A stretch of 64,000 nt of DNA, from positions 1 through 64,000 of the forward strand of contig QXHL01000008.1 of the NCBI GenBank assembly GCA_003584005.1. Reading direction: 5' to 3'. Both the position numbers and the translations under genes were made by a program. Below, piece after piece: positions 3,997 through 46,749 of this stretch (position 1 is its first letter; each line of letters opens with the position of its first letter). This stretch comes from Alicyclobacillaceae bacterium I2511 (GTDB lineage: Bacteria > Bacillota > Bacilli > Alicyclobacillales > Alicyclobacillaceae). The notes beneath the pieces are model-generated. The model saw only the letters and a program-made list of their open reading frames with translations, did not search any database and had not been told where the DNA came from.

Positions 3997-5248
3997 GTGG
4001 ATTGTGGGCCTCATCGACATGCAGAGTTTCTACGCCTCGGTGGAAGTGGCTACTCGCGCCGAATACCTCAGGCGTCGGTTTCTGGAAGCAGACGACTCTG
4101 ACCCGGCTTTGGCGGTCACGGGCGATCCCAAACGGCGCAGCGGCATCATCCTGGCGGCCACGCCAGCCGCAAAAGCCTGCGGGGTGTCCACGGCGATGCG
4201 CTTGGGCGAAGCCCTCCATGCCTGTCCGTCGCTGGTCTACGTTCCGCCCCGGATGCAACTGTACATCGACACTTCCGTGCGCATCCATGAGACCGTGCGC
4301 CAGACATTTCCCAAGTACGAGCCGTTCTCGGTGGATGAGTGTTTTTTCGCCTTTCCCTCGCCTTCCGACCTGTTCCCGGACCCCGTCCAGGCCGCTGCAG
4401 ACCTGCGAACGCGAATTTGGAACCAGTTTCGCATTCGTAGCCGCGTAGGCTTGGCCCCCAACAAGTGGGCCGCGAAAATGGCGAACAAAGCGGCCAAAAA
4501 AGTGTCGGGGGGCGTGCTGTGGTGGCGGTCCCAGGAGAATGTCCTCGACGCCATACACCCCCTTCCAGTGACCGACATGTGGGGGTTAAAACGGCGAGCC
4601 GCCACACTGCAAGCGGAGTTGGGTTGCTCCACCATTGGCGATGTGGCGAGGCTTCCCTTGGGACGACTGCGGGCCCGTTTTGGCGTATGGGGCGAGGTGA
4701 TTCACCGCTGGGCCAATGGGTTGGACTACAGCGAATTGAACACGGACACCATGAGTCTCCCCCACCAGGGTTACAGCCATCGCACCACGTTGCCCCGGGA
4801 TTATACACGGCGGGATGAGGTGACCGTGGTGATACTGGAATTGTTGGACGAAGTCTGCACCCGTGCCCGACAGGCCCAGCAAAAGGGACGGCGAATCGGC
4901 CTGGGCCTCACCTATGCGAGCCTCACAGGTGGGTTCTACAAGGCGAAAACATTGCCGTTTGCCAGCAATCACAGCGAGGCGCTGTACTCAACTTTGCTGG
5001 AACTCCTAGACCGACATTGGGATCTAAGCGGAGTACGAGCGGTCAGTGTATCCCTGGATCAACTCGGATTTGAAGACGGGGTGCAGCTCAACTTATTAGA
5101 AGACATTCTCCGCCGACAAGCCTTGTGGGCCACGGTAGACGAGGTGCGGCGCAACTATGGCGAGACAAGCCTGATGCGCCTGTCCAGCCTGCTGCCTGCC
5201 GGGCAGCTGAGAGAGCGGGCACACAAAATTGGAGGGCATACGGCATGA
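3971..5248 (+). CDS. UvrX/UmuC-like Y-family translesion DNA polymerase
   Basis: 425 residues, the normal length of Gram-positive UvrX-type polymerases that copy past damaged bases. Seen directly: the palm motif LIDMQSFYASVE (first catalytic Asp at about 16), the second acidic pair FSVDECFF (Asp122-Glu123), an RVGLAPNKWAAKMAN fingers/helix-hairpin segment, and a C-terminal little-finger region. The TTG at 3971 gives the longest form; a GTG at 4004 would also fit homologue lengths, so the exact start is open. Its stop overlaps the start of the YolD-like gene by four bases (ATGA), an arrangement typical of uvrX-yolD pairs. Confidence 0.85.
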   Translation: MEGTDLTAEWIVGLIDMQSFYASVEVATRAEYLRRRFLEADDSDPALAVTGDPKRRSGIILAATPAAKACGVSTAMRLGEALHACPSLVYVPPRMQLYIDTSVRIHETVRQTFPKYEPFSVDECFFAFPSPSDLFPDPVQAAADLRTRIWNQFRIRSRVGLAPNKWAAKMANKAAKKVSGGVLWWRSQENVLDAIHPLPVTDMWGLKRRAATLQAELGCSTIGDVARLPLGRLRARFGVWGEVIHRWANGLDYSELNTDTMSLPHQGYSHRTTLPRDYTRRDEVTVVILELLDEVCTRARQAQQKGRRIGLGLTYASLTGGFYKAKTLPFASNHSEALYSTLLELLDRHWDLSGVRAVSVSLDQLGFEDGVQLNLLEDILRRQALWATVDEVRRNYGETSLMRLSSLLPAGQLRERAHKIGGHTA

Positions 5249-6495: not shown

Positions 6496-7392
6496 TTATC
6501 CTATATTGTAGGCTGCTTCCTCGACAAATTGAGATGTACTATATCCATTAAAACTGGTTACAAGTTGCTCCGTCCATGAAGTTCCTACGTCCTGTACGCC
6601 TAATACGTCTGAGAAAGTTGCCTGATCACTTGAGTATGGTCCCCAATTCCCAAGAATTTGTTTATCACCATTGTAAGTTGCTCCAACCCCAATACCAAAT
6701 GAGCTAGCTCCAGCAGAAACATTATATATATTAATATTATAATGCGTTCCATCACTGGAAATTACAGGATTGAAGTCTGTATACAGATTATTTGTTATCC
6801 ACTCTACGCCAACTGAATCTGTCCATGTATTTGTGTCTTGATAATTATTACCACCTAAATTTACATACGAATCTGGTGAGATAGTTGTAGTACCATTAGA
6901 AGTTGGGCTGGTAGATTGAATAGGTTCAATTGTGTTCGTTCTGGTAATTGTACTACCATCTGGAAACACATACTTAATGGTTACTCCGGCTGGTAATGGA
7001 TTATTTATATCTTTCGGCCAATAGGCTAGATTGTTTGACTCAGCATTTTTAAAGAGATTTTTCGCAAAATCTTTATTTTGTTTAAGATACATTTGAAATT
7101 TTTGCCCACTAACAGAATTAAGGAATTGATTAGTTGTGCCATGAATATTCGCATTAATCAATTCATTAACTAATTTATGCTGCTCAGTTGGGAGACTTGA
7201 AATAAAATTCTCCTCATTGTTGGAAATAGCAGGGTTTTGAGGAGTTGGACTAACTATAACTGTTTTCGAAATTTCTGTTCCAAAATTAAATATTTGATTA
7301 TTAGATGAAGTGGAAGCAGCAAAGACTGTTGGAATCGATACACAAGTAACAAAAAGAGCCGAGGTAGAAATTGCAATTAAATTCCTTTTCAT
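6496..7392 (-). CDS. secreted protein behind a c-di-GMP riboswitch
   Basis: 298 residues with a classical signal peptide (basic MKRN, hydrophobic core, VFA-AST cleavage region near residue 25). The mature part is rich in Asn, Ser, Thr and Gly and contains the segments LGGNNYQDTNTWTDSVGVEW and a GVGATYNGD C-terminal region. No family recognised. A GAGGAGGA ribosome binding site precedes ATG 7392. The long 5' leader (to about 7925) contains a GEMM riboswitch and terminator, so expression should respond to cyclic di-GMP. Confidence 0.75.
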   Translation of the reverse strand: MKRNLIAISTSALFVTCVSIPTVFAASTSSNNQIFNFGTEISKTVIVSPTPQNPAISNNEENFISSLPTEQHKLVNELINANIHGTTNQFLNSVSGQKFQMYLKQNKDFAKNLFKNAESNNLAYWPKDINNPLPAGVTIKYVFPDGSTITRTNTIEPIQSTSPTSNGTTTISPDSYVNLGGNNYQDTNTWTDSVGVEWITNNLYTDFNPVISSDGTHYNINIYNVSAGASSFGIGVGATYNGDKQILGNWGPYSSDQATFSDVLGVQDVGTSWTEQLVTSFNGYSTSQFVEEAAYNIG

Positions 7393-7498
7393 TTAAATAT
7401 CCTCCTCGTATCAAAATAGCAAACAAACCTCATGAGTTTATTTGAGTGAACGGTAAATCACAACCATTAGCAAATAACTCGGTCTATCAGTAAACGCA

Positions 7499-7675
7499 CT
7501 AACGATTTAACTGCCTTTTGGATAGCTGTCTCTGATCACTAATCATCATCACCAGACCTCTGTGATTGCGAGCATTGCCTGTCATAGAACGCATAACGAC
7601 CTGATTGAACATTTGGCAGATCTCGATGTCCTCGTAATCACTCTTCTCAAAGTAAATGATGTTTGTGCTAACGAC
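7499..7675 (-). other. conserved 58-codon open frame inside the riboswitch leader, copy 1
   Basis: Between the leader terminator and the secreted-protein start, a stop-to-stop frame has protein-like composition (SDYEDIEICQMFNQVV..., ending LSKRQLNR). Internal ATGs exist, but no good ribosome binding site precedes them. It is preserved in the second leader copy at 43008-43184. It may be a relic of a gene displaced by leader duplication, or a leader peptide. Confidence 0.3.
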
Positions 7676-7790
7676 TCATTGGACTGACGTCACCCGGAAT
7701 TCACAGCAATCAACAGATTTGTTATGAGAATGCAGCCGTTGCTTAAGAATTGAACGACAAATGATCTTCTAATGGAATTCACCCCTCTCC

Positions 7791-7823
7791 AAAAATCAAA
7801 AATCTGGCCGTATTCCGCCAGAC
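7791..7823 (-). terminator. intrinsic terminator of the GEMM expression platform, copy 1
   Basis: On the minus strand the stem TCTGGCGGAATACGGCCAGA is followed directly by TTTTTGATTTTT. It lies about 20 bases downstream of the aptamer, where an expression platform is expected, and about 400 bases upstream of the secreted-protein start. Confidence 0.8.
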
Positions 7824-7837
7824 TGTACAGATACTCT

Positions 7838-7925
7838 ATCTGCAACCTGGCTGGCGTAGTGCCTATCGCACTGTAGCCCCATGGCTTTGCGTCCCTCAGT
7901 TTCCCGAGGTTTGCCCCTTGTCCCC
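7838..7925 (-). ncRNA. c-di-GMP-I (GEMM-I) riboswitch, copy 1
   Basis: On the minus strand, in order: GGGGCAAACC, a GGGAAACTGAGGGACGCAAAGCC block (tetraloop-bearing first stem then the GACGCAAAGCC ligand core), ATGGGGCTA, a variable stem, and GCCAGCCAGGTTGC closing the tetraloop-receptor helix. These are the conserved elements of the Vc2-type aptamer in the right order and spacing. A terminator follows, so it is a transcriptional switch. A second near-identical copy is at 43347-43434. Confidence 0.85.
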
Positions 7926-8309
7926 GTCTCAACATTCTCTATTTAATGTAATCCTAGTCTCCCACATTCCCTCTTGCAAACACATTCATTCCCTGTGTCG
8001 TTACGGAATTTAGTAGAACTTACTGAGAATCCCGTATTTGCTCTGTTTTATGGAGCTTTTCGTAGCATTTCTCCTTTTTACCACCACTTCACTTTTCTGG
8101 TTAGAAAGACATGGGTCGAAAAGGTCGTCTTCATCAGATTTCTCGCGTCGAACGTCCGGGTCCAAGCACGACATTTTCTGCTGTGCCTAATTGGCCTCTG
8201 GCGGAATATCATAGTTTTCCGGGATAGACACTCATGCCGCTGTTAGCGGCACCAGCTGGGGATGTAAATCCACGAACCTGTATTTACTAGGATGGGATGC
8301 TCAACGTTT
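7926..8309. other. leader promoter region and recJ 3' flank
   Basis: Noncoding. It should contain the minus-strand promoter of the riboswitch transcript. A GCCGCTGTTAGCGGC hairpin at about 8234-8248 probably terminates recJ. The segment is largely repeated at 43435-43752, but the hairpin and roughly 60 surrounding bases are missing from that copy. Confidence 0.4.
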
Positions 8310-10022
8310 TCACCGCCCATCCACCATCCGCAGTTGAACCGTTCGTTCGCCCTTCCACTGGTGGTCCCCCACCGTGACCAGCAGGTGATGTAGCGTCCCT
8401 GTCTGCCATACCTGGCGTTGCTCCCCCTTGCCAAAAGCGAGCACGGGGTAAGTGAAGCCCTGCTCGTTTCTCACCCACACTTTCAAATGCTGGTTCTCTT
8501 TGCCCATCGTCTGCGCCGCTTCCACGGTGACACCTGCGACAAAGAACACCGGCTCTGGGTTCCCGTTCCCGAACGGTTCCAGCTTGGCCAAGTCGTCCAC
8601 CAGTGAAAACGAGAGTTCCCCCAGGTCCAACGGGGCATCGGTGATTCGGTGCGGGTCCAGTTCTACATCCTCAAACCAGTTGCGTTCCACGGCGTACCCA
8701 TAGGATTTCTGCAGGCGGTTGAGGTCTGCCGTCGCCAGGCTGAACCCTGCGGCCGCCTCGTGCCCGCCAAACTTCTCGAACACCCCCGTGCGCTGTGGTA
8801 CGTCCGCCAACGCCCGGTACAAGTCGTACTCCGGAATCGCTCGCCCCGATCCCTTGGCCCGGTCCCCGTCCACCGTCACGCACAGCGTGGATTTCCAGAA
8901 ACGCTCGGTCAGCTTGCCCGCGACAATGCCGATCACGCCCTCGTGCCAGCCTTTTCCCGCCACCACCAGCCCCTTTTTCTCCAGCCAGTTTGGGTGTGCC
9001 TCAATTTGTGTCAGGGCTTCCGTTTCCACCTGGCTCTGCAACGCCTTGCGCCGGTCGTTGTACACGTTCAGTTCACGAGCGATGCTCAAGGCTTCCTGCG
9101 GGTCCTCCGTCAGAAACAGCTCCACCGCCCGCTTCGCATGCGCCAGACGGCCTACCGCGTTGATTCGCGGGGCCAACTGAAACGCCGCCGCCGTGGAGGT
9201 CACGCGTTTTTCAGCCAAGCCCGCGACTGCGATGAGCGCTGCTAGGCCCAGGTTGGGCTCGCTGTTGAGACGTTTGAGGCCCTCTTTGACCAACACCCGG
9301 TTTTCACCAACCAGCGGGACTTGGTCTGCCACTGTGGCCAGAGCCACCAAGTCTAGCAGGTCTTCCGGGAATTCGCCCAGGAGGGCTTGGGCCAGTTTGA
9401 AGGCGACTCCCGCGCCGCACAGGTCGGGAAAACTGTACATTGACCGGGGATAGGCCGGATGGACAAGGGCGACAGCGTTTGGCACCGTTGAGATATGATG
9501 GTGGTCTGTGACAATTAGGTCCACACCCAGGGCTTTGGCGGCGTCTCCCGCTTCCACCGCCGTGATTCCGGTGTCCACGGTGATGAGGAGCTTCACCCCC
9601 TGCTCTGCGGCCGCTTGGACTATTTTGGTGTGCAGGCCATAGCCGTCGGTGAAGCGGGACGGAACGAACCAGGCGGGGTCTGCGCCCAGTTTGCGCAGGG
9701 TCCGGACCAGAATGGCCGTGGCCGCCGTTCCGTCCACATCGTAGTCGCCATAGACCAGGATGGGTTCTTGGGCTTGGATGGCCTGGCGAATGCGGGCCAC
9801 AGCACGGGGCATGTCGTGCATCATCATAGGGTCAATCAAACTGGAGCGATTCGCTTGGAGGAACGCCCCTGCGGACTCGACGCGAGCACAGTTCCGGGTG
9901 GTGAGAATCCGGGCCACCAGGGGATGCAGGTGGAATGTATCGGCCAATATGTGGGCCGCATCTAAATCGGCTTGGCGGCCGATCCATTTGTATTTGATGG
10001 GAAACACTGTGGTCTGAGTCAA
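8310..10022 (-). CDS. recJ: RecJ-like single-stranded-DNA exonuclease
   Basis: DHH-family 5'-3' ssDNA exonuclease used in recombination and repair. Seen: VYGDYDVDGTAATAILVR (motif I), LITVDTGI, VTDHHHIS (DHH motif), HPAYP and the C-terminal DHHA1/OB-like part (GSGRAIPEYDLYRAL, FGGHEAAAGFSL). I choose the TTG at 10022 (AGAGGGGG eight to nine bases upstream) over an upstream ATG at 10103; this gives 570 residues, near the E. coli length and shorter than many Bacillota RecJ proteins. Intact, with all catalytic motifs. A broken second copy is at 43753-45479. Confidence 0.85.
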   Translation of the reverse strand: MTQTTVFPIKYKWIGRQADLDAAHILADTFHLHPLVARILTTRNCARVESAGAFLQANRSSLIDPMMMHDMPRAVARIRQAIQAQEPILVYGDYDVDGTAATAILVRTLRKLGADPAWFVPSRFTDGYGLHTKIVQAAAEQGVKLLITVDTGITAVEAGDAAKALGVDLIVTDHHHISTVPNAVALVHPAYPRSMYSFPDLCGAGVAFKLAQALLGEFPEDLLDLVALATVADQVPLVGENRVLVKEGLKRLNSEPNLGLAALIAVAGLAEKRVTSTAAAFQLAPRINAVGRLAHAKRAVELFLTEDPQEALSIARELNVYNDRRKALQSQVETEALTQIEAHPNWLEKKGLVVAGKGWHEGVIGIVAGKLTERFWKSTLCVTVDGDRAKGSGRAIPEYDLYRALADVPQRTGVFEKFGGHEAAAGFSLATADLNRLQKSYGYAVERNWFEDVELDPHRITDAPLDLGELSFSLVDDLAKLEPFGNGNPEPVFFVAGVTVEAAQTMGKENQHLKVWVRNEQGFTYPVLAFGKGEQRQVWQTGTLHHLLVTVGDHQWKGERTVQLRMVDGR

Positions 10023-10128
10023 CGGAAACGCCCCCTCTGGGAATATTGTAGCGCGTGGGGAGGGGGGCGTGGGGGAAACGAGGGCATTGTGCGAGTGGAG
10101 CACGTCACGTGACCTTGGTGAGTTGCGT

Positions 10129-10191
10129 CTAATGACTGGGGCACCGTTTGGGTGTCGGTCAATTTGTGAGAGGTGCAGGACACGTTAAAAC
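10129..10191 (+). repeat. promoter/RBS segment shared by three loci, copy A
   Basis: The segment AATGACTGGGGCACCGTTTG...GTGAGAGGTGCAGGACA recurs at 45573-45627 and 60287-60350. At 45.6 kb it ends in the ribosome binding site and ATG of a lipoprotein gene, which identifies it as an expression cassette. Here the ATG is lost (ACACG) and the next lipoprotein uses its own start 130 bases on. Confidence 0.6.
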
Positions 10192-14809: not shown

Positions 14810-16762
14810 GTCGGGTAGCTTGGGCACCTTGTGGTGCCCTTGCCCCCTAAGAACCGGGCGAGACTCTTTCGAGTCACACGGCTCAAGCCATCCTGCAGTT
14901 TTGACGTTGTCGTTGGCCCTTTGACTGTTTTCCTTGCCAGACCACTTGCCATCAACAATGCTTTCTTGATTGGAAAGATAGCGTTCTGGGTTGTCTGGCA
15001 AAGTATCATAGTCATGGATGGAACGATACTTTTCGTAGCACCATCGATGCGTAACGACGACATTTTCAATCGTGTTGTGCCCACCCAATCGGTCGGGAAT
15101 CATCCGAGCGAAAAGGATGTCATTATCTCCGTTTACCTGCCAGTGGCGGAAGTGTTCTACCGATATATTGCATCCGCATAGGGCACATCTGCCACCCGTT
15201 TTGTGCACCACTTTCTTTTGGAAGCCATTCAATCGCTTGAGTAGCAGTTGCTCTCGTCTTGCCTCAAAGTATTCATGGTCGCTCGGTCGGTGGGGTGAGC
15301 GTCGTCCCTGTATCTTGATGTGCCGAATGATACGTATGTCGCTCATGGTAGCCAGCGTAAACGGCCCGTCCGCGAATACCCAGTTTCGGTTTCCGCGCCG
15401 AGTGAAGTATCTCTGGTAAATCCACCATGCGGACTTTTTAGGGTGCCGACGTTTTGCCCATTTCCACAGCATCTGAATTATCTTGTGGTCGCAGTATCCA
15501 AAGACCTTCTTGCTGACCTGTGTGCTGTAGTAATTGCCCCACCCGCGAATAATAGGATTGAGCAACCGAATGACCATAGACTGTTTGGCTGACTTATTCG
15601 CGTCCAATATGCCCTTGATTTTCCGTAGAACAGCGAGTTTACTGTCCTTGGCGGGTTTAATCAATAGCTGTCCCTTGTACTTGCGGACATGGAATCCGAG
15701 GAAGTCGAACCCGTCATTGATGTTCGTTATGTGCGTTTTTTCTAGACTGAGTTCGACGCCTACATTATCCGCAAGCCACTGGGCGATGACTGGAACGAAC
15801 TGCTCTGCTTGCTCCTTCGTTTTGCACGTGACAATGAAGTCATCCGCATAAGAGACGATGTTGATGCCAGGATTAGCACGGCTGCTTCCGAATCTCATTT
15901 GGAATGCCTTTTGCCGCAAATCTTTCTCCATACCCTGTAGCGCGATGACCGCAATTAACGGCGAAATCAGGCCACCCTGCGGAGTGCCTCGCGTGCTTGC
16001 CAGCAGGCCTTCTTCGGGGTCGAGGACCGGAGCTTTCAGCATACGCCGAACATATATGCGGTCCTCCGGGGCCAGTCTAGCCAAGAGTTTCGCATGGTCG
16101 ACGTTGTCAAAATAGCCACGTATGTCCCCTTCGATGACCCATTGGGCAGAACCTGACTTGCAGAAGTTCGCGAAGACTTGACTCATGGCATCCCACGTTG
16201 ACCTTTGTGGACGGAATCCGTACGTATTGGGCGAAAACTGAGTGTCCCATTCTGGTTCCATGGCCGCTTTATGAATGGCCTGGCACACGCGATCATGAGT
16301 AGTTGGAATACCGAGCGGCCTGGGTTTTCCGTTTTTCTTGACGATATACACACGCCGAACGGGTAGGGGACGGCTTCCGAGATCGACGAGTCCACGTAGC
16401 TCACGTCTCTTTTCTGGCGTGGTGTACGTTTTTCCGTCTACCCCCGGTGTGCGGCGTCCCCGGTTTTCTTGTGTCACATGCCGAATGGCCATAAGTTTGG
16501 TGTGGTGGCTGGTACGGATGAGCCACTTATAGTGGCGCACAGCTTTACGATTGTTGTGTTCGACTGCGTGGGCCAGTTGTCGCTGTAACCTGAGAACGTG
16601 GTGTTCGATTTCCTTCCAGTCTATCCACTCGTCTGCATGCTCACTGGCGTCCGCTGTTTGAGCTTTTACCCATGCGCGCATAATTGCGTCTTCGTGGATT
16701 TCGCGAGGATTCTTACGAATGTGGCCTGTTGACTCGTCTTGTGAGACGGCTTTCCGGTTCAT
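14255..16762 (-). CDS. ltrA: group II intron reverse transcriptase/maturase reading on into the 3' exon
   Basis: ATG 16762 follows an AAAGGAGT ribosome binding site. The protein has the RT domain (GVDG..., RPLGIPTTHDRVCQAIHKA, FRPQRSTWDA, GTPQGGLISP, SYADDFIV), a maturase X region and a C-terminal HNH-like domain (CALCGC...HFRHWQVNGD...NVVVTHRWC). There is no stop before the intron 3' end: the frame runs through domains V and VI into the transposase exon in the transposase frame. Unspliced RNA would therefore encode an RT-transposase fusion of about 835 residues. The intron-encoded role is splicing and retrohoming. Confidence 0.85.
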   Translation of the reverse strand: MNRKAVSQDESTGHIRKNPREIHEDAIMRAWVKAQTADASEHADEWIDWKEIEHHVLRLQRQLAHAVEHNNRKAVRHYKWLIRTSHHTKLMAIRHVTQENRGRRTPGVDGKTYTTPEKRRELRGLVDLGSRPLPVRRVYIVKKNGKPRPLGIPTTHDRVCQAIHKAAMEPEWDTQFSPNTYGFRPQRSTWDAMSQVFANFCKSGSAQWVIEGDIRGYFDNVDHAKLLARLAPEDRIYVRRMLKAPVLDPEEGLLASTRGTPQGGLISPLIAVIALQGMEKDLRQKAFQMRFGSSRANPGINIVSYADDFIVTCKTKEQAEQFVPVIAQWLADNVGVELSLEKTHITNINDGFDFLGFHVRKYKGQLLIKPAKDSKLAVLRKIKGILDANKSAKQSMVIRLLNPIIRGWGNYYSTQVSKKVFGYCDHKIIQMLWKWAKRRHPKKSAWWIYQRYFTRRGNRNWVFADGPFTLATMSDIRIIRHIKIQGRRSPHRPSDHEYFEARREQLLLKRLNGFQKKVVHKTGGRCALCGCNISVEHFRHWQVNGDNDILFARMIPDRLGGHNTIENVVVTHRWCYEKYRSIHDYDTLPDNPERYLSNQESIVDGKWSGKENSQRANDNVKTAGWLEPCDSKESRPVLRGQGHHKVPKLPDLMLRKIRIAMADRNAKYRLEDIVQIDDFYLGGESEGKRGRGTDQAPVVTGVSMKKGKPEYLFMDLVNDLSKHSVLEVLSGRLTKGVILETDGWPTYASCAEDLGVQSHLIARSRDGNKNETFQWLDKAISNFKKFIDGTYHGRQLDDQLYMEEYTYRYNRRNFGHRLVERLLAASAQTSLAQSP

Positions 16763-17342
16763 AACAGACCACTCCTTTCGTCTCATGCTGCAGGATTTCC
16801 GGCTGGATGACCTTGGGCAAGTCTGCACGTTTTCGCGTCAGGGTATCTCGGCATTTTTGCCGCCCCTATCTGTCCCATTACAAGACAGCCTTCGCTTTTT
16901 GCCCGTTCCTTTACCCCCTGAAGAGTTCGGCGTCACTCACGTTTTGCTTACTGTCTATTCTTCAGACAGACCTCATGGGGCTTACCTTGTTCCGTTGACA
17001 ACCCGTCTTTGAAGTGTTTAGGTGCTCCGACTCCCGCGGTAGCGCTCAGAACTGCGAATCAGTAAGCGTGGAGTGCTGATTCCGGCTACATGCCTTTTGG
17101 CTCAAGCGTGTCAAGGTGTTTCGCTCGTTTCCGATAACGCGGTTTATATGGAGTTCAGGTCACTTCACCATGCACTTCACAACCTAGCTCTGGCTGGAAT
17201 TCACCTTAACCAGCGCGGCTACGTTGTCCCGCGAGCTCCGTAAGACGGTATTACCACCATCCCACGTCGCGGTAGGTTCGCTCTCGCAGTTCAGAGAGGG
17301 CGGATTTGCACCACATGATTGTCAACAGCTTTCAAGTCGCAC
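14810..17342 (-). other. group II intron
   Basis: 5' end GTGCGACTTGAAAGC at 17342 (canonical GTGYG); 3' end CTACCCGAC at 14810-14818. Domain V is at 14851-14884: GAGCCGTGTGACTCGAAAG...GTCTCGCCCGGTTC, with a GAAA tetraloop. Domain VI is a GGGCACCACAAGGTGCCC hairpin just before the 3' end. The large 5' domains occupy about 16763-17342. It interrupts a conserved position of the IS1595 transposase, so it depends on the IS as host. Confidence 0.85.
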
Positions 17343-29179: not shown

Positions 29180-29367
29180 TAGATATCACCTCATTTTTTG
29201 ATAACAAAAATCTAGCGGTTTTTGGATGGACGATTGATTGAAGTGAACACATGTTGATCTGGTGTGGATGTTTCCTCCAGTCCGCGACATTCCCTTTAAA
29301 AAGTGAAGAGTAGAGAACCTCGTTTCGACCCTCTACTTATATAAAAGACATCGACCCTCGATTTTGA
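29180..29367 (-). promoter_or_regulatory. promoter region of the module genes with small hairpin
   Basis: AGTAGAG / CTCTACT stem at about 29307-29338 can end the sigma operon transcript. The following 120 bases upstream of ATG 29179 must hold the promoter; it is the only intact effector promoter region in the window and the best place to look for the SigO-like recognition sequence. Confidence 0.4.
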
Positions 29368-29574
29368 TTACACATTTTTAAATTTTTTTGTGATGACCTC
29401 ACGAATCAAAATCTCACACACCTCCTGGATGGCTTCGGGCTGCATTCGCCCAGACAACCGTGTGGCTCTTCGGATCTCCGGCATGAATCCTTGGCAAAGG
29501 GGTCCTATAGACTGCCAATTCTCTCGACGGACTTGCAGCAGGAGGTCATGAATTTGCTGTGGACTGCGTTTCAC
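29368..29574 (-). CDS. RsoA-like small sigma co-factor
   Basis: 68 residues, all helical: MKRSPQQIHDLLLQVRRENW, then LCQGFMPEIRRATRLSG and IQEVCEILIREVI. Size and pattern resemble the N-terminal helix-turn-helix segment of RsoA (YvrHa), which supplies sigma region 2 to B. subtilis SigO. The GTG start overlaps the TGA of the sigma gene (GTGA), indicating coupled translation. Assignment is by size, context and pattern. Confidence 0.5.
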   Translation of the reverse strand: MKRSPQQIHDLLLQVRRENWQSIGPLCQGFMPEIRRATRLSGRMQPEAIQEVCEILIREVITKKFKNV

Positions 29575-39867: not shown

Positions 39868-39893
39868 GCCGTCTGATTGACGGGCAGTCAGGC
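39868..39893 (-). terminator. hairpin downstream of the GEMM-like RNA
   Basis: GCCTGACTG-CCCGT-CAATCAGACGGC forms an imperfect stem, followed on the minus strand by GTGTTCTTCTCTC, a weak U-rich stretch. It sits between the aptamer-like element and the winged-helix gene. Confidence 0.4.
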
Positions 39894-39898
39894 TATCT

Positions 39899-39969
39899 GG
39901 TCCCGACGCGCGTCAGGACGGAAGACCCTATGACTTTGCGACCCCGGCTTCCGCGCGGGTGTGCACATG
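39899..39969 (-). ncRNA. candidate variant c-di-GMP-I (GEMM) riboswitch
   Basis: On the minus strand: GTGCACACC, then GGGGTCGCAAAGTCATAGGG (compare GGGACGCAAAGCCATGGGG of the confident copies), then TCTTCCGTCCTGACGCGCGT and CGGGACC. The order of core, short stem and closing helix fits GEMM, but several conserved bases differ (TCGCAAAGTC instead of ACGCAAAGCC) and the 5' GGGCAAACC is poor. It could be a ligand-shifted or decayed variant. Confidence 0.4.
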
Positions 39970-40184
39970 TTAAATGTTGGTAATGATATAACGCTGATAA
40001 AGACGGACAAGTTACGGCAGAACGATAAGAGCCTGACCAATACCGAAAAGCATGAAATGCTATCATGAAAGCACAGCCCGTTTGCAGAGTGATCAACACG
40101 GTCGGGTGCTTCAACACACCGTCGACGATATCGCCATTTCAACAGAACATTGATGGATGAACAACCGGCTAAGGAGAGCCTGTT

Positions 40185-41849: not shown

Positions 41850-42905
41850 TCAGCCTACCGGGTCGATATTCCCATAATTTTTCCAATAATCGGTAAAAGA
41901 ATTCACCGTAGTTAAAGGATTATTCGCTGAAGCCATTGTTAATCCATCTTCACTCATAGTAAGTTCATTATTTGGCCAATCTCCAATGGCGAATGGGCCC
42001 GGTTCTGTAACTGAACCCGCAGCCGCACTTGTAAACACTTCGCTACCAAAATCCGTGAGGTGAGGATAACTATTATTTTCTTCTGTACGTTCAACAATCC
42101 ATTCAGCCGTACTGCCATTATAGTCACTGGAATCCCCGGAGTCGGAAAAACTTACAGCAACATTTGTTGTTTCATCTACCAAGTAGAAGTAAGCTGTACT
42201 ATTCGAATAACTGACGTCCGCATACATTTTATCTCCGGCTGAAATCACCATATTGGTTAAATCTTGTTGGTAAGGATACTTGGGAAGTATTTCAAACCAC
42301 GGATAGTAATTAGGAAACATGACATACGTCCTTAGAGTTATTGTCAGATCAGCTTCAGTACCCATTTGGATTAAATCGGGGTTACCGTTTCCCCCGATGC
42401 CAACCCAAGTGCAAGAATATTGATAATTCGGTCCACCAGGACCACCAGTAGTGGCATTTGGAACAGTCCACGTAGCTCTTACATCCGTATATCCATTATA
42501 ATTATATCCATTATACGCATAATAACCTGACCAATTATGAGATGAGGCTGAACCGCTTGCTGTACTTTGGTTTGTGGTATAGTGGTGGGTACTGATGACA
42601 CTCTTAAAGGTAGGAATAATGAAACGTTTGGAATGCTCCATAGCAGTTTTCCAAGCAGATAACAGTGAAGGGTTTGTCGGTTTTGTAGGAAAACCGTGCG
42701 CTTTGAGCTCACCGTTTGTTGCAGTAAGAGGATTAAAACCACTTGATGGAATATGCACGGCTACCCCAAGTTGTTGTGCTGTTTCTGTCGTAGCAGATGA
42801 AGTATTAGCAGACAATGTACTAGCAGACGCCGTGTTACCATATGTTGTCTCACATAATAGCGTGGTCATACCAATCGCAGTCATCAATAAAATTTTCTTC
42901 ATCAT
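41850..42905 (-). CDS. secreted G1-family (eqolisin) glutamic peptidase
   Basis: 351 residues. Signal peptide (1-25), propeptide to about 120, then the eqolisin beta-sandwich: HNWSGYYAY (123-131), ATWTVPN (144-150), CTWVGIGG (165-172), LIQMG with candidate catalytic Gln180, WFEILP (203-208) and AEWIVER with candidate catalytic Glu268. G1 peptidases use a Gln/Glu pair and work at acid pH, fitting an acidophile. Transcription starts behind a c-di-GMP riboswitch leader shared with the unrelated secreted protein at 6496-7392. Confidence 0.85.
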   Translation of the reverse strand: MMKKILLMTAIGMTTLLCETTYGNTASASTLSANTSSATTETAQQLGVAVHIPSSGFNPLTATNGELKAHGFPTKPTNPSLLSAWKTAMEHSKRFIIPTFKSVISTHHYTTNQSTASGSASSHNWSGYYAYNGYNYNGYTDVRATWTVPNATTGGPGGPNYQYSCTWVGIGGNGNPDLIQMGTEADLTITLRTYVMFPNYYPWFEILPKYPYQQDLTNMVISAGDKMYADVSYSNSTAYFYLVDETTNVAVSFSDSGDSSDYNGSTAEWIVERTEENNSYPHLTDFGSEVFTSAAAGSVTEPGPFAIGDWPNNELTMSEDGLTMASANNPLTTVNSFTDYWKNYGNIDPVG

Positions 42906-43007
42906 TTACCACTCCTCATATAAAAATAACAAACAAGCCCCCGAAGTTTTTTTAGTGAACGGTAAATCACAACCATTAGCAAATAACTCGGTCTATCAGT
43001 AAACGCA

Positions 43008-43184
43008 CTAACGATTTAACTGCCTTTTGGATAGCTGTCTCTGATCACTAATCATCATCACCAGACCTCTGTGATTGCGAGCATTGCCTGTCATAGAACG
43101 CATAACGACCTGATTGAACATTTGGCAGATCTCGATGTCCTCGTAATCACTCTTCTCAAAGTAAATGATGTTTGTGCTAACGAC
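43008..43184 (-). other. conserved 58-codon open frame inside the riboswitch leader, copy 2
   Basis: Same frame as 7499-7675, with the stop preserved. It lies between the leader terminator and the peptidase start. Confidence 0.3.
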
Positions 43185-43299
43185 TCATTGGACTGACGTC
43201 ACCCGGAATTCACAGCAATCAACAGATTTGTTATGAGAATGCAGCCGTTGCTTAAGAATTGAACGACAAATGATCTTCTTATGGAATTCACCCCTCTCC

Positions 43300-43332
43300 A
43301 AAAATTAAAAATCTGGCCGTATTCCGCCAGAC
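43300..43332 (-). terminator. intrinsic terminator of the GEMM expression platform, copy 2
   Basis: Identical stem to copy 1 (TCTGGCGGAATACGGCCAGA) followed by TTTTTAATTTTT on the minus strand. Confidence 0.8.
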
Positions 43333-43346
43333 TGTACAGATACTCT

Positions 43347-43434
43347 ATCTGCAACCTGGCTGGCGTAGTGCCTATCGCACTGTAGCCCCATGGCTTTGCG
43401 TCCCTCAGTTTCCCGAGGTTTGCCCCTTGTCCCC
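43347..43434 (-). ncRNA. c-di-GMP-I (GEMM-I) riboswitch, copy 2
   Basis: Same conserved elements as copy 1, including GGGGCAAACC, GGGACGCAAAGCC and GCCAGCCAGGTTGC, with no visible change in the aptamer. It controls the acid peptidase gene. Confidence 0.85.
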
Positions 43435-43752
43435 GTCTCAACATTCTTTATTTAATGTAACCCTATTCTACCAAATCTCCTCTTGCAAACACATTCATTC
43501 CCTGTGTCGTTACTGAATTTACCGAAACATACTAAAAATCCCGGAGTTGCTCTGTTTTATGGTGTTTTTCTCGAAATCCCTCTTTTTACTACAATATCTC
43601 TTTCCAGACTAGAACAACATGGGTCGACAAGATCATTTTAATCAAATTTCTCGCGTCGGACGCCGGGTCCAAACGCGACATTCTCCGCTGGGCCAGAGTG
43701 TCCTCTGGTGGAATGTCGTAGCTTTCCGGGATACAGAGGAGGCTCAACGTTT

Positions 43753-45479
43753 TCACCGCCCATCCACCATCCGCAGTTGAATCGTCCGTTCGCCCTTCCA
43801 TTGATGGTCCCCCACCGTGACCAGCAGGTGATGTAGCGTCCCTGTCTGCCAAGCAGGGCGTTGCTCCCCCTTCCCAAAAGCGAGCACGGGGTAGGTGAAG
43901 CCCTGCTCGTTTTTCACCCACACTTTCAAGTGCTGGTTCTCTTTGCCCATCGTCTGCGCCGCTTCCACGGTGACGCCTGCGACAAAGAACACCGGTTCCG
44001 GGTTCCCGTTCCCGAACGGTTCCAGCTTGGCCAAGTCGTCCACCAGCGAAAACGAGAGTTCCCCCAGGTCCAACGGGGCATCGGTGATCCGGTGCGGGTC
44101 CAGTTCCACGTCCTCAAACCAGTTGCGTTCCACGGCGTACCCGTAGGACTTCTGCAGGCGGTTGAGGTCCGCTGTCGCCAGGCTAAACCCTGCAGCCGCC
44201 TCGTGCCCGCCAAACTTTTCGAACACCCCTGTGCGCTGTGGTACGTCCGCCAACGCCCGGTACAAGTCGTACTCCGGAATCGCTCGGCCCGATCCTTTCG
44301 CTCGGTCCCCGTCCACCGTCACACACAGGGTGGATTTCCAGAAACGCTCGGTCAGCTTGCCAGCGACAATGCCGATCACGCCCTCGTGCCAGCCGCTTCC
44401 CGCCACCACCAGCCCTTTTTTCCCAGCCATTTCGGGTGCGCCTCAATTTGTGCCAGGGCTTCCGCTTCCACCTGACTCTGCAACGCCTTGCGTCGGTCGT
44501 TGTACACGTTCAGTTCACGAGCGATGCTCAAGGCTTCCTGCGGGTCCTCCGTCAGAAACAGCTCCACCGCCCGCTTCGCATGGGCCAGACGGCCTACCGC
44601 GTTGATTCGCGGGGCCAACTGAAACGCCGCCGCCGTGGAGGTCACGCGTTTTTCAGCCAAGCCAGCGACTGCGATGAGCGCTTCTAGGCCCAGGTTGGGC
44701 TCACTGTTGAGACGTTTGAGACCCTCCTTGACCAACACCCGGTTTTCGCCAACCAGCGGGACTTGGTCTGCCACCGTGGCCAGAGCCACCAAGTCTAGCA
44801 GGTCTTCCGGGAATTCGCCCAGGAGGGCTTGGGCCAGCTTGAAGACGACTCCCGCGCCGCACAGGTCGTGAAAACTGTACATTGACCGTGGATAGGCCGG
44901 ATGGACAAGGGCGACAGCGTCTGGCACCGTTGAGATATGATGGTGGTCTGTGACAATCAGGTCCACCCCCAGGGCTTTGGCGGCCTCTCCCGCTTCCACC
45001 GCCGTGATTCCGGTGTCCACGGTGATGAGCAGTTTCACCCCCTGTTCTGCGGCCGCTTGGACTATGTTGGTGTGCAGGCCATAGCCGTCCGTGAACCGGG
45101 ACGGGATGAACCAGGCGGGGTCCGCGCCCAGTTTGCGCAGGGTCCGGACCAGAATGGCCGTGGCCGCCGTTCCGTCCACATCGTAGTCGCCATAGACCAG
45201 GATGGGTTCTTGGGCTTGAATGGCCTGGCGAATGCGGGCTACAGCACGGGGCATGTCGTGCATCAGCATGGGGTCAATGAGGCTGGAGCGAACCGCTTGG
45301 AGGAACGCCTCTGCGGACTCGACGCGAGCACAGTGGCGCGTGGTGAGAATCCGGGCCACCAGAGGATGCAGGTGGAACGCATCGGCCAGCGTGCGGGCCG
45401 CATCTAAATCGGCTTGGCGGCCGATCTATTTGTATTTGATGGTAGATAGTGTAGTCGGAGTCAACAGCAACGCCCCCTC
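43753..45479 (-). pseudogene. recJ: second copy of recJ, broken
   Basis: Closely matches 8310-10022. Two lesions are visible: a one-base deletion near 44424 in a poly-purine run (HPNWLEKKGLVV becomes HPKWLGKKGWWW), and a TGG-to-TAG change at 45426-45428 in the N-terminal KYKWIGRQ. The catalytic motifs in between are still readable, so decay is recent. Confidence 0.85.
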
Positions 45480-45572
45480 TGGGGATAGTGTAGCGTGAGT
45501 AGAAAGGAGATGTGGGGGAAAACGAGTGCATTATGCGAGTGGGGTGCGTCACGCGACCTTGGGGAGTTGCGT

Positions 45573-45627
45573 CTAATGACTGGAGGACCGTTTGGGTGCT
45601 GGGCAATATTTGTGGGAGGTGTAGGGA
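45573..45627 (+). promoter_or_regulatory. shared promoter/RBS segment, copy B
   Basis: AATGACTGGAGGACCGTTTGG...GTGGGAGGTGTAGGGA ends directly at the lipoprotein ATG, defining the function of the three-copy repeat. Confidence 0.6.
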
Positions 45628-46749
45628 ATGAAGAAAAAGGCTGTAATGACGGCGGGAATCTTCGCCTTCGCGTTAGTGGTGTTAGTGGGATGCGGGGGAA
45701 CAAGTGGAACGACAAATCAAACGACTGTCTCTCACACTCCAGCGCCAATTTTCTCATCTCCCGTTTCATTAAACGGAGTAAATTTTTTTGGCGTGCAAAA
45801 TGGATGGGCTACCAGCTCAAACGGAGGTGTTTTTGTAACAGCAAGCGGTGGTCGTGAATGGAAGCATGTATCGCCAAAATTGACACCCAACAATATGGCA
45901 ACTTTTTATGATTTTTTAAATCAAAATACCGCTTGGTTATTGGATGAAAGCAAAGATGGAACGATTACTGTTTGCAAAACTTTTGATCGTGGTCGTTATT
46001 GGACACAAATGGGAACCCTTCACCTTGCATACCCCGGTGGGGGTGTTCAAGTCGATTTTGTAGATGCTTTACACGGACTTATTGAAAATACTCTTCCTGG
46101 AATGATGTCTCTTCCAGCTGTTCTATATTCCACAAATAACGGCGGTTCTACATGGAAACAAATAAATTCCACAGATGACTCTGGAAATCATTCAAATAAA
46201 ATGCCGTTTGGTGGTGAAATTTTGTTTCACACAGCATTGGATGGTTGGCTTTATGGATCTCCGCGCGGCTTCGACATGGGTGGATTGTATCACACAAATA
46301 ATGGTGGACTACAATGGCATCATATCGACATTCCTGTGAGTAAAAAAGATCATCATGCCGTGATGCTATTCCCATCCACGATTGTCGAATTTAATCCACA
46401 AGTGCTTATCGTTCCAGTTTTCTTTCAAAGGAATGGGGTACAAGTAGATCAAAAGTTATACAGTAGCACCAATGACGGCTTAACTTGGACAGTCCACAAT
46501 TTACCCGCAGATTCCTCAGCCAATATTTCATTTCTGAATGGTGCTCAAGGGTGGGTCATCTCGATGAACGGTGCACTTTATCAGACAGACAATAGCGGTC
46601 ATACGTGGAAATTACTTCAGCCGAATCTAAATTTAAATGCAACTTACCCATTTCAATTTGCCACTGCTGTTGATGGTTGGGTTGTTGTTAATGGAAAGTT
46701 GTATTATACACGAGATAGTGGAGAATGGTGGGAAAAAATTTATGGATAA
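45628..46749 (+). CDS. YCF48/BNR-like beta-propeller lipoprotein
   Basis: 373 residues. Lipoprotein signal (MKKKAVMTAGIFAFALVVLVGC), then repeated Asp-box/YCF48-like blades: YSTNNGGSTWKQI, YHTNNGGLQWHHI, YSSTNDGLTWTVH, YQTDNSGHTWKLL, YYTRDSGEWWEKI, and NGWATSSNGGVFV at the start. Outer-face, membrane-anchored. Convergent with a GH25-like gene 45 bases away; I infer a binding or immunity role toward that hydrolase. Intact. Confidence 0.75.
   Translation: MKKKAVMTAGIFAFALVVLVGCGGTSGTTNQTTVSHTPAPIFSSPVSLNGVNFFGVQNGWATSSNGGVFVTASGGREWKHVSPKLTPNNMATFYDFLNQNTAWLLDESKDGTITVCKTFDRGRYWTQMGTLHLAYPGGGVQVDFVDALHGLIENTLPGMMSLPAVLYSTNNGGSTWKQINSTDDSGNHSNKMPFGGEILFHTALDGWLYGSPRGFDMGGLYHTNNGGLQWHHIDIPVSKKDHHAVMLFPSTIVEFNPQVLIVPVFFQRNGVQVDQKLYSSTNDGLTWTVHNLPADSSANISFLNGAQGWVISMNGALYQTDNSGHTWKLLQPNLNLNATYPFQFATAVDGWVVVNGKLYYTRDSGEWWEKIYG

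Follow-up and report, generated by a model that had tools for sequence, protein, structure and literature searches.

Two secreted-protein genes of Alicyclobacillaceae bacterium I2511 lie behind almost identical leaders, each carrying a c-di-GMP riboswitch, within the 64,000-nucleotide stretch of DNA analysed here (the window). How did one leader come to stand before two genes that are unrelated in sequence, and what would it do there? A reading of the letters alone (the sequence-only reading) had taken the repeat as direct evidence of a regulatory cassette being moved to recruit a new gene into a c-di-GMP regulon. The history that we consider probable is a segmental duplication of recJ, promoter and leader, with later conversion of the leader core and an OFF switch on both genes.

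Two leaders and the genes behind them

Leader 1 precedes a gene for a 298-aa secreted protein (6496-7392, minus strand) that has a signal-peptide-like N-terminus but no Pfam family and no PDB relative; its relatives are limited to a 40% homologue fragment in genome G044 and a short piece in one more relative. Leader 2 precedes a gene for a secreted G1/A4 (eqolisin-type) peptidase (41850-42905, minus strand), which matches PF01828 with 102.9 bits (2.1e-29) and, in the PDB, aspergillopepsin II. In the alignment with that enzyme, the Q of LIQMG falls on ILQTG and an E is found in AEWIVE, in keeping with the family assignment; we take the aligned Gln and Glu to be the catalytic residues of the G1/A4 family. 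BLASTP detects no relationship between the two proteins (best E 0.17), one having a PF01828 domain and the other no Pfam family, so the claim that the genes are unrelated holds at the level of sequence. Hidden homology was considered and, for the sequences, rejected on the same BLASTP result, though the two proteins may still have a fold in common. Structure predictions of the two proteins, made without an alignment, are uninformative, with mean pLDDT values of 34 and 30.

The c-di-GMP-I aptamers are located at 7838-7925 (copy 1, model positions 1-87) and 43347-43434 (copy 2, full length), both on the minus strand. Each scores 77.1 bits (E 2.1e-13) against RF01051, compared with a gathering score of 35. 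An intrinsic terminator hairpin follows each aptamer directly on the same strand: that of copy 1 (7801-7824) has a T-rich tail after it and folds alone at -12.3 kcal/mol, and that of copy 2 lies at 43310-43333. When prefixes of the leader are folded by energy in the absence of ligand, the 5' arm of the terminator pairs with the 3' strand of the aptamer at 132-138 nt, forming an antiterminator, and from 144 nt both aptamer and terminator are present. Each leader thus has an expression platform composed of a terminator (7824-7801 or 43333-43310) and an alternative antiterminator pairing. Because ligand binding would favour the fold with aptamer and terminator, this modelling suggests that both leaders are c-di-GMP OFF switches.

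The element is of a known kind. As in other members of the c-di-GMP-I (GEMM-I) family RF01051, a full-length aptamer is followed by an intrinsic terminator in both copies; unlike them, one leader occurs nearly identically before two unrelated genes, and the stretch from terminator to start codon is unusually long (~400 nt). The Bc1 riboswitch of Bacillus thuringiensis (PMC11218506) also combines a class I aptamer with a long platform, but it has two terminators, whereas here a single terminator precedes an unstructured stretch. In Clostridium difficile, all seven functional class I c-di-GMP switches act in the OFF direction, and one of them controls a secreted protease (PMC6366702); the OFF direction predicted here from folding is the same, with the warning from that study that switch direction is not to be extrapolated between species.

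Upstream of the predicted transcription start, a 34-nt island on the minus strand is identical in both copies (7971-8004 and 43480-43513); a genome search that allowed up to 3 mismatches returned these two occurrences and no more. The island contains an ACACA-N9-TGTGT dyad and the hexamer TTGCAA, a possible -35 element, and a weak -10 candidate, TAGGAT, is present at 7951-7956. We infer from these motifs a promoter of the form TTGCAA-N17-TAGGAT, a weak match with a predicted start at ~7944. A consensus scan reported no sigma-70 site at the leader.

The recJ-leader duplication

The repeat is not confined to the leader. Window self-BLAST and pairwise alignment identify one collinear duplication of ~2.7 kb on the minus strand, in two pieces of 91.5% and 93.2% identity, with copies at 7402-10179 and 42912-45625. 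These lie ~35.5 kb apart on one 91 kb contig; the source is a single draft genome of 232 contigs. In the transcription sense, the block consists of a recJ-type gene, a spacer, the promoter region and the leader; copy 1 begins 76 nt upstream of recJ, includes the whole gene and ends in the 3' end of the leader. A gap of ~64 nt in the spacer interrupts the alignment. On the leader side, homology stops short of the ATG by 9 nt at the 298-aa gene and by 6 nt at the peptidase gene, confirming the earlier placement of the join close to the two start codons. At the other end, homology in copy 2 fades near 45628, where a lipoprotein-like gene has its start codon. The sequence-only reading overlooked this extension, at ~93% identity, which takes in the promoter region and all of recJ as far as 10179 and 45625. 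Its proposal that a regulatory cassette was moved is not supported and is probably wrong in that form: the duplicated unit is recJ, promoter and leader together, and neither leader is found without its neighbouring recJ.

The recJ-like single-stranded DNA exonuclease gene of copy 1 (8310-10103, minus strand) is intact, encoding 597 aa with DHH, DHHA1 and RecJ_OB domains (8313-10103 open). Its counterpart in copy 2 (43753-45506, minus strand) is broken by an in-frame TAG and a frameshift. Differences between the two are distributed 16/20/77 over codon positions 1, 2 and 3, which indicates that coding constraint acted on both copies for much of the time since they separated, with the decay of copy 2 coming later. 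The sole other full-length recJ copy in the genome (G000:C166:78589-80361) has two TGA codons within its reading frame, and a match to the usual type of recJ was not found in the genome. Some relatives carry a recJ of the window type beside or in place of the usual one. A recJ of this type is also present on an Alicyclobacillus acidoterrestris plasmid (47% identity).

Further direct repeats occur in the window (13197-14206/19711-20719, 29878-30476/47613-48210 and 40909-41018/49015-49124), several of them also ~93% identical, and these may share one age or donor. Pieces of group II introns are found at 14810-14886 and 17172-17298 (minus strand). The shared level of identity would fit a different history, in which one block was transferred from a sister species with ~93% identical DNA instead of being duplicated within the genome, and the plasmid-borne recJ homologue of A. 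acidoterrestris is in line with such movement. However, no such donor was present among the genomes searched, and the window recJ shares only 52% identity with the recJ of G001, a genome of the same genus. We therefore consider transfer possible but unlikely.

The leader core

Within the duplication, a leader core (7446-7948 and 42955-43457, minus strand) differs between the copies at three of 503 aligned sites (7771, 7797 and 7939), with a constant offset of 35,509. The near base-for-base match reported earlier between 43000-43440 and 7490-7930 is upheld and proves slightly longer, and it does include aptamer and terminator, the former with no difference between copies. The core begins at about the predicted transcription start and stops ~54 nt short of the start codon. 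Its divergence (0.6%) contrasts with that of the flanking non-coding parts of the duplication (77/417, 18.5%; Fisher 9e-25) and of recJ third codon positions (77/597, 12.9%; Fisher 4e-18); even recJ second codon positions, with 20/596 different, exceed it. The longest run free of differences is 326 nt, compared with a maximum of 141 in 20,000 shuffles of silent sites, a procedure that ignores rate variation along the sequence. Homology continues at 79% identity over 43 nt on the gene side and at 80% over 276 nt on the recJ side, so the core is embedded in an older duplication. It thus has the form of a gene-converted tract, with high identity between diverged homologous flanks, and its identity relative to these flanks points to later homogenisation and away from a recent hop made by the leader separately.

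The copies might also be kept identical without conversion, by strong purifying selection acting on all 500 nt of the leader RNA. Such selection would account for the upstream edge of the core, which coincides with that of the transcript near the predicted start (~7944; a weak promoter match), and for the identity of the 34-nt promoter island; in addition, a 130-bp part of the leader (7645-7774) recurs on contig C148 at 95% identity. The fragment on C148, however, has no aptamer and is accompanied by further pieces of window sequence, riboswitch platforms are normally variable outside the aptamer, and the post-terminator stretch is absent from all relatives searched. That stretch accounts for 351 nt of the core with a single difference between copies, yet its predicted structure is no greater than that of shuffles (z +0.84), no Rfam family matches it and it contains no long ORF, which argues against selection base by base. 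A known RNA in this stretch was likewise rejected on the Rfam result and the fold score. Overwriting of one copy by the other is most likely, and we regard maintenance by selection on every base as distinctly unlikely.

Had the core moved alone as a cassette, replacing part of the older recJ duplication or inserting into it, a distinct block of near-identity such as the one observed would be expected. The region around the leader was already common to both sites, however, since homology of ~79-80% is found both on the promoter side and in the 45 nt that separate the core from the gene start, and inspection of the core edges by eye found no terminal repeats or target-site duplications. A cassette move is decidedly improbable on this evidence, with the proviso that it and conversion over a homologous leader are mechanistically nearly one event and not fully separable. 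An artefact by which mis-assembled repeats produced the identical tract is scarcely credible: the assembly is a draft and the 326-nt identical run is longer than common short reads, but the three core differences are resolved, the copies share a contig, and each runs without a break into diverged flanks at both ends (flanks could have been swapped between copies, which would leave the main conclusion unchanged).

Distribution of the leader and possible recruitment of a gene

Riboswitches of the c-di-GMP-I class are common in this group, being present in 59 of 61 related genomes surveyed. In this genome, a third, weak aptamer of the window (39880-39975, minus strand; 39.9 bits) precedes a gene for a 114-aa protein with a Trans_reg_C DNA-binding domain only. 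Two others (G000:C152:10181-10265, plus strand, and G000:C195:5025-5109, minus strand) are each followed immediately by a short ORF for a SinI antirepressor (PF08671; 1e-7 and 7e-8), and after one of these comes a SinR-like HTH protein. At these aptamers, a hairpin CCGAAG..CTTCGG extends into the ribosome-binding site, which suggests that c-di-GMP may control sinI translation; no aptamer-sinI pair was seen among the other aptamer loci examined. Two more (L001 and L005) precede an EAL-type and a GGDEF-type protein, as judged by reading the sequence rather than by family search, and this arrangement suggests possible feedback on c-di-GMP turnover.

The leader beyond the aptamer is found in 0 of 58 other genomes of the order, and plasmid records contain no copy of the leader. 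The search for more copies in the genome that the sequence-only reading had proposed returned no other full leader, and the sole further piece is the 130-bp post-terminator fragment without aptamer on contig C148 (20319-20447, in locus G000:C148:14000-26000). Near this fragment are pieces matching window positions 29329-29547 and 4349-4478, in a patchwork of genome fragments. The leader was also considered as a mobile element and rejected as such, since neither the genome, the order nor plasmid records yielded a further full copy.

In the relatives examined, no homologue of either gene was found behind the riboswitch. Among 27 G1 peptidase loci of relatives, an aptamer was detected at one, where it is placed after the peptidase gene and directed towards a different one. 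No c-di-GMP-I aptamer was found upstream of the genome's own second G1 peptidase, at the recJ homologues inspected or, among the relatives examined, upstream of any homologue of the 298-aa gene, and the longest ORFs behind 51 other aptamers include no relatives of the 298-aa protein or the peptidase. A scan of the genome contigs with the peptidase as query found no relative. These loci mostly comprise 1.5 kb flanks and the homologues are distant (~33-40%), so the lack of upstream aptamers supports a young association of leader and gene moderately rather than strongly. Independent ancestral leaders on the two genes, the alternative raised by the sequence-only reading against itself, are rejected, as no riboswitch lies upstream of the homologues examined. 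Recruitment of at least one gene by the leader is plausible, given the absence of a riboswitch from these homologues and from the second G1 peptidase. The earlier claim stands as far as the same leader before two genes unrelated in sequence is concerned; 'direct evidence' of recruitment was too strong a term, as either gene, or neither, may have owned the leader first.

In the history of duplication and conversion that we favour, a segment of ~2.7 kb comprising recJ, its 3' spacer, the promoter region and the c-di-GMP-I leader would have been duplicated ~35.5 kb apart. One end of the copied segment falls just before a start codon, and the same promoter and riboswitch would thereby have come to serve two secreted-protein genes unrelated to each other. 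At the second site recJ has decayed, and the leader core would later have been homogenised, with ectopic gene conversion between the copies as the most likely mechanism. Each leader would act as a transcription-attenuating switch: in the emerging RNA, the terminator 5' arm would pair with the aptamer 3' strand, and once c-di-GMP is bound the aptamer would stay closed, releasing the terminator arm so that transcription stops. Both secreted proteins would thus be turned off together at high c-di-GMP. At low c-di-GMP, in a motile or dispersing state, both would be made, which would suit a secreted peptidase. Of this history, the duplication with its boundaries, the aptamers and terminators, the contrast in identity and the broken second recJ are shown by the sequence, whereas conversion, the OFF direction, the promoter and joint regulation of the two genes are inferred.

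Regulatory regions are known to spread by duplication and by gene conversion between paralogues. The present case resembles those systems in having a homogenised tract inside diverged duplicates, and differs in that the tract is a riboswitch leader before non-homologous genes. It is tempting, if doubtful, to go further and suppose that recurrent gene conversion targeted to the transcribed leader keeps the two paralogous leaders matched, and that the c-di-GMP regulon grows by segmental duplication plus conversion.

Our literature search found no paper on c-di-GMP riboswitches in Alicyclobacillus, and one passing mention. The closest parallel is the class I switch of C. difficile zmpI (PPEP-1), by which a secreted protease is repressed by c-di-GMP (PMC6366702), although that enzyme is a zinc metalloprotease with a single leader and the one here an acid G1 peptidase. 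The locus would accordingly offer a proposed case of direct c-di-GMP control of an extracellular acid peptidase. It would also be a clean and recent example of how a bacterial second-messenger regulon may gain a gene, in which a segmental duplication brought a promoter and riboswitch to a new coding sequence and the RNA part was then homogenised.
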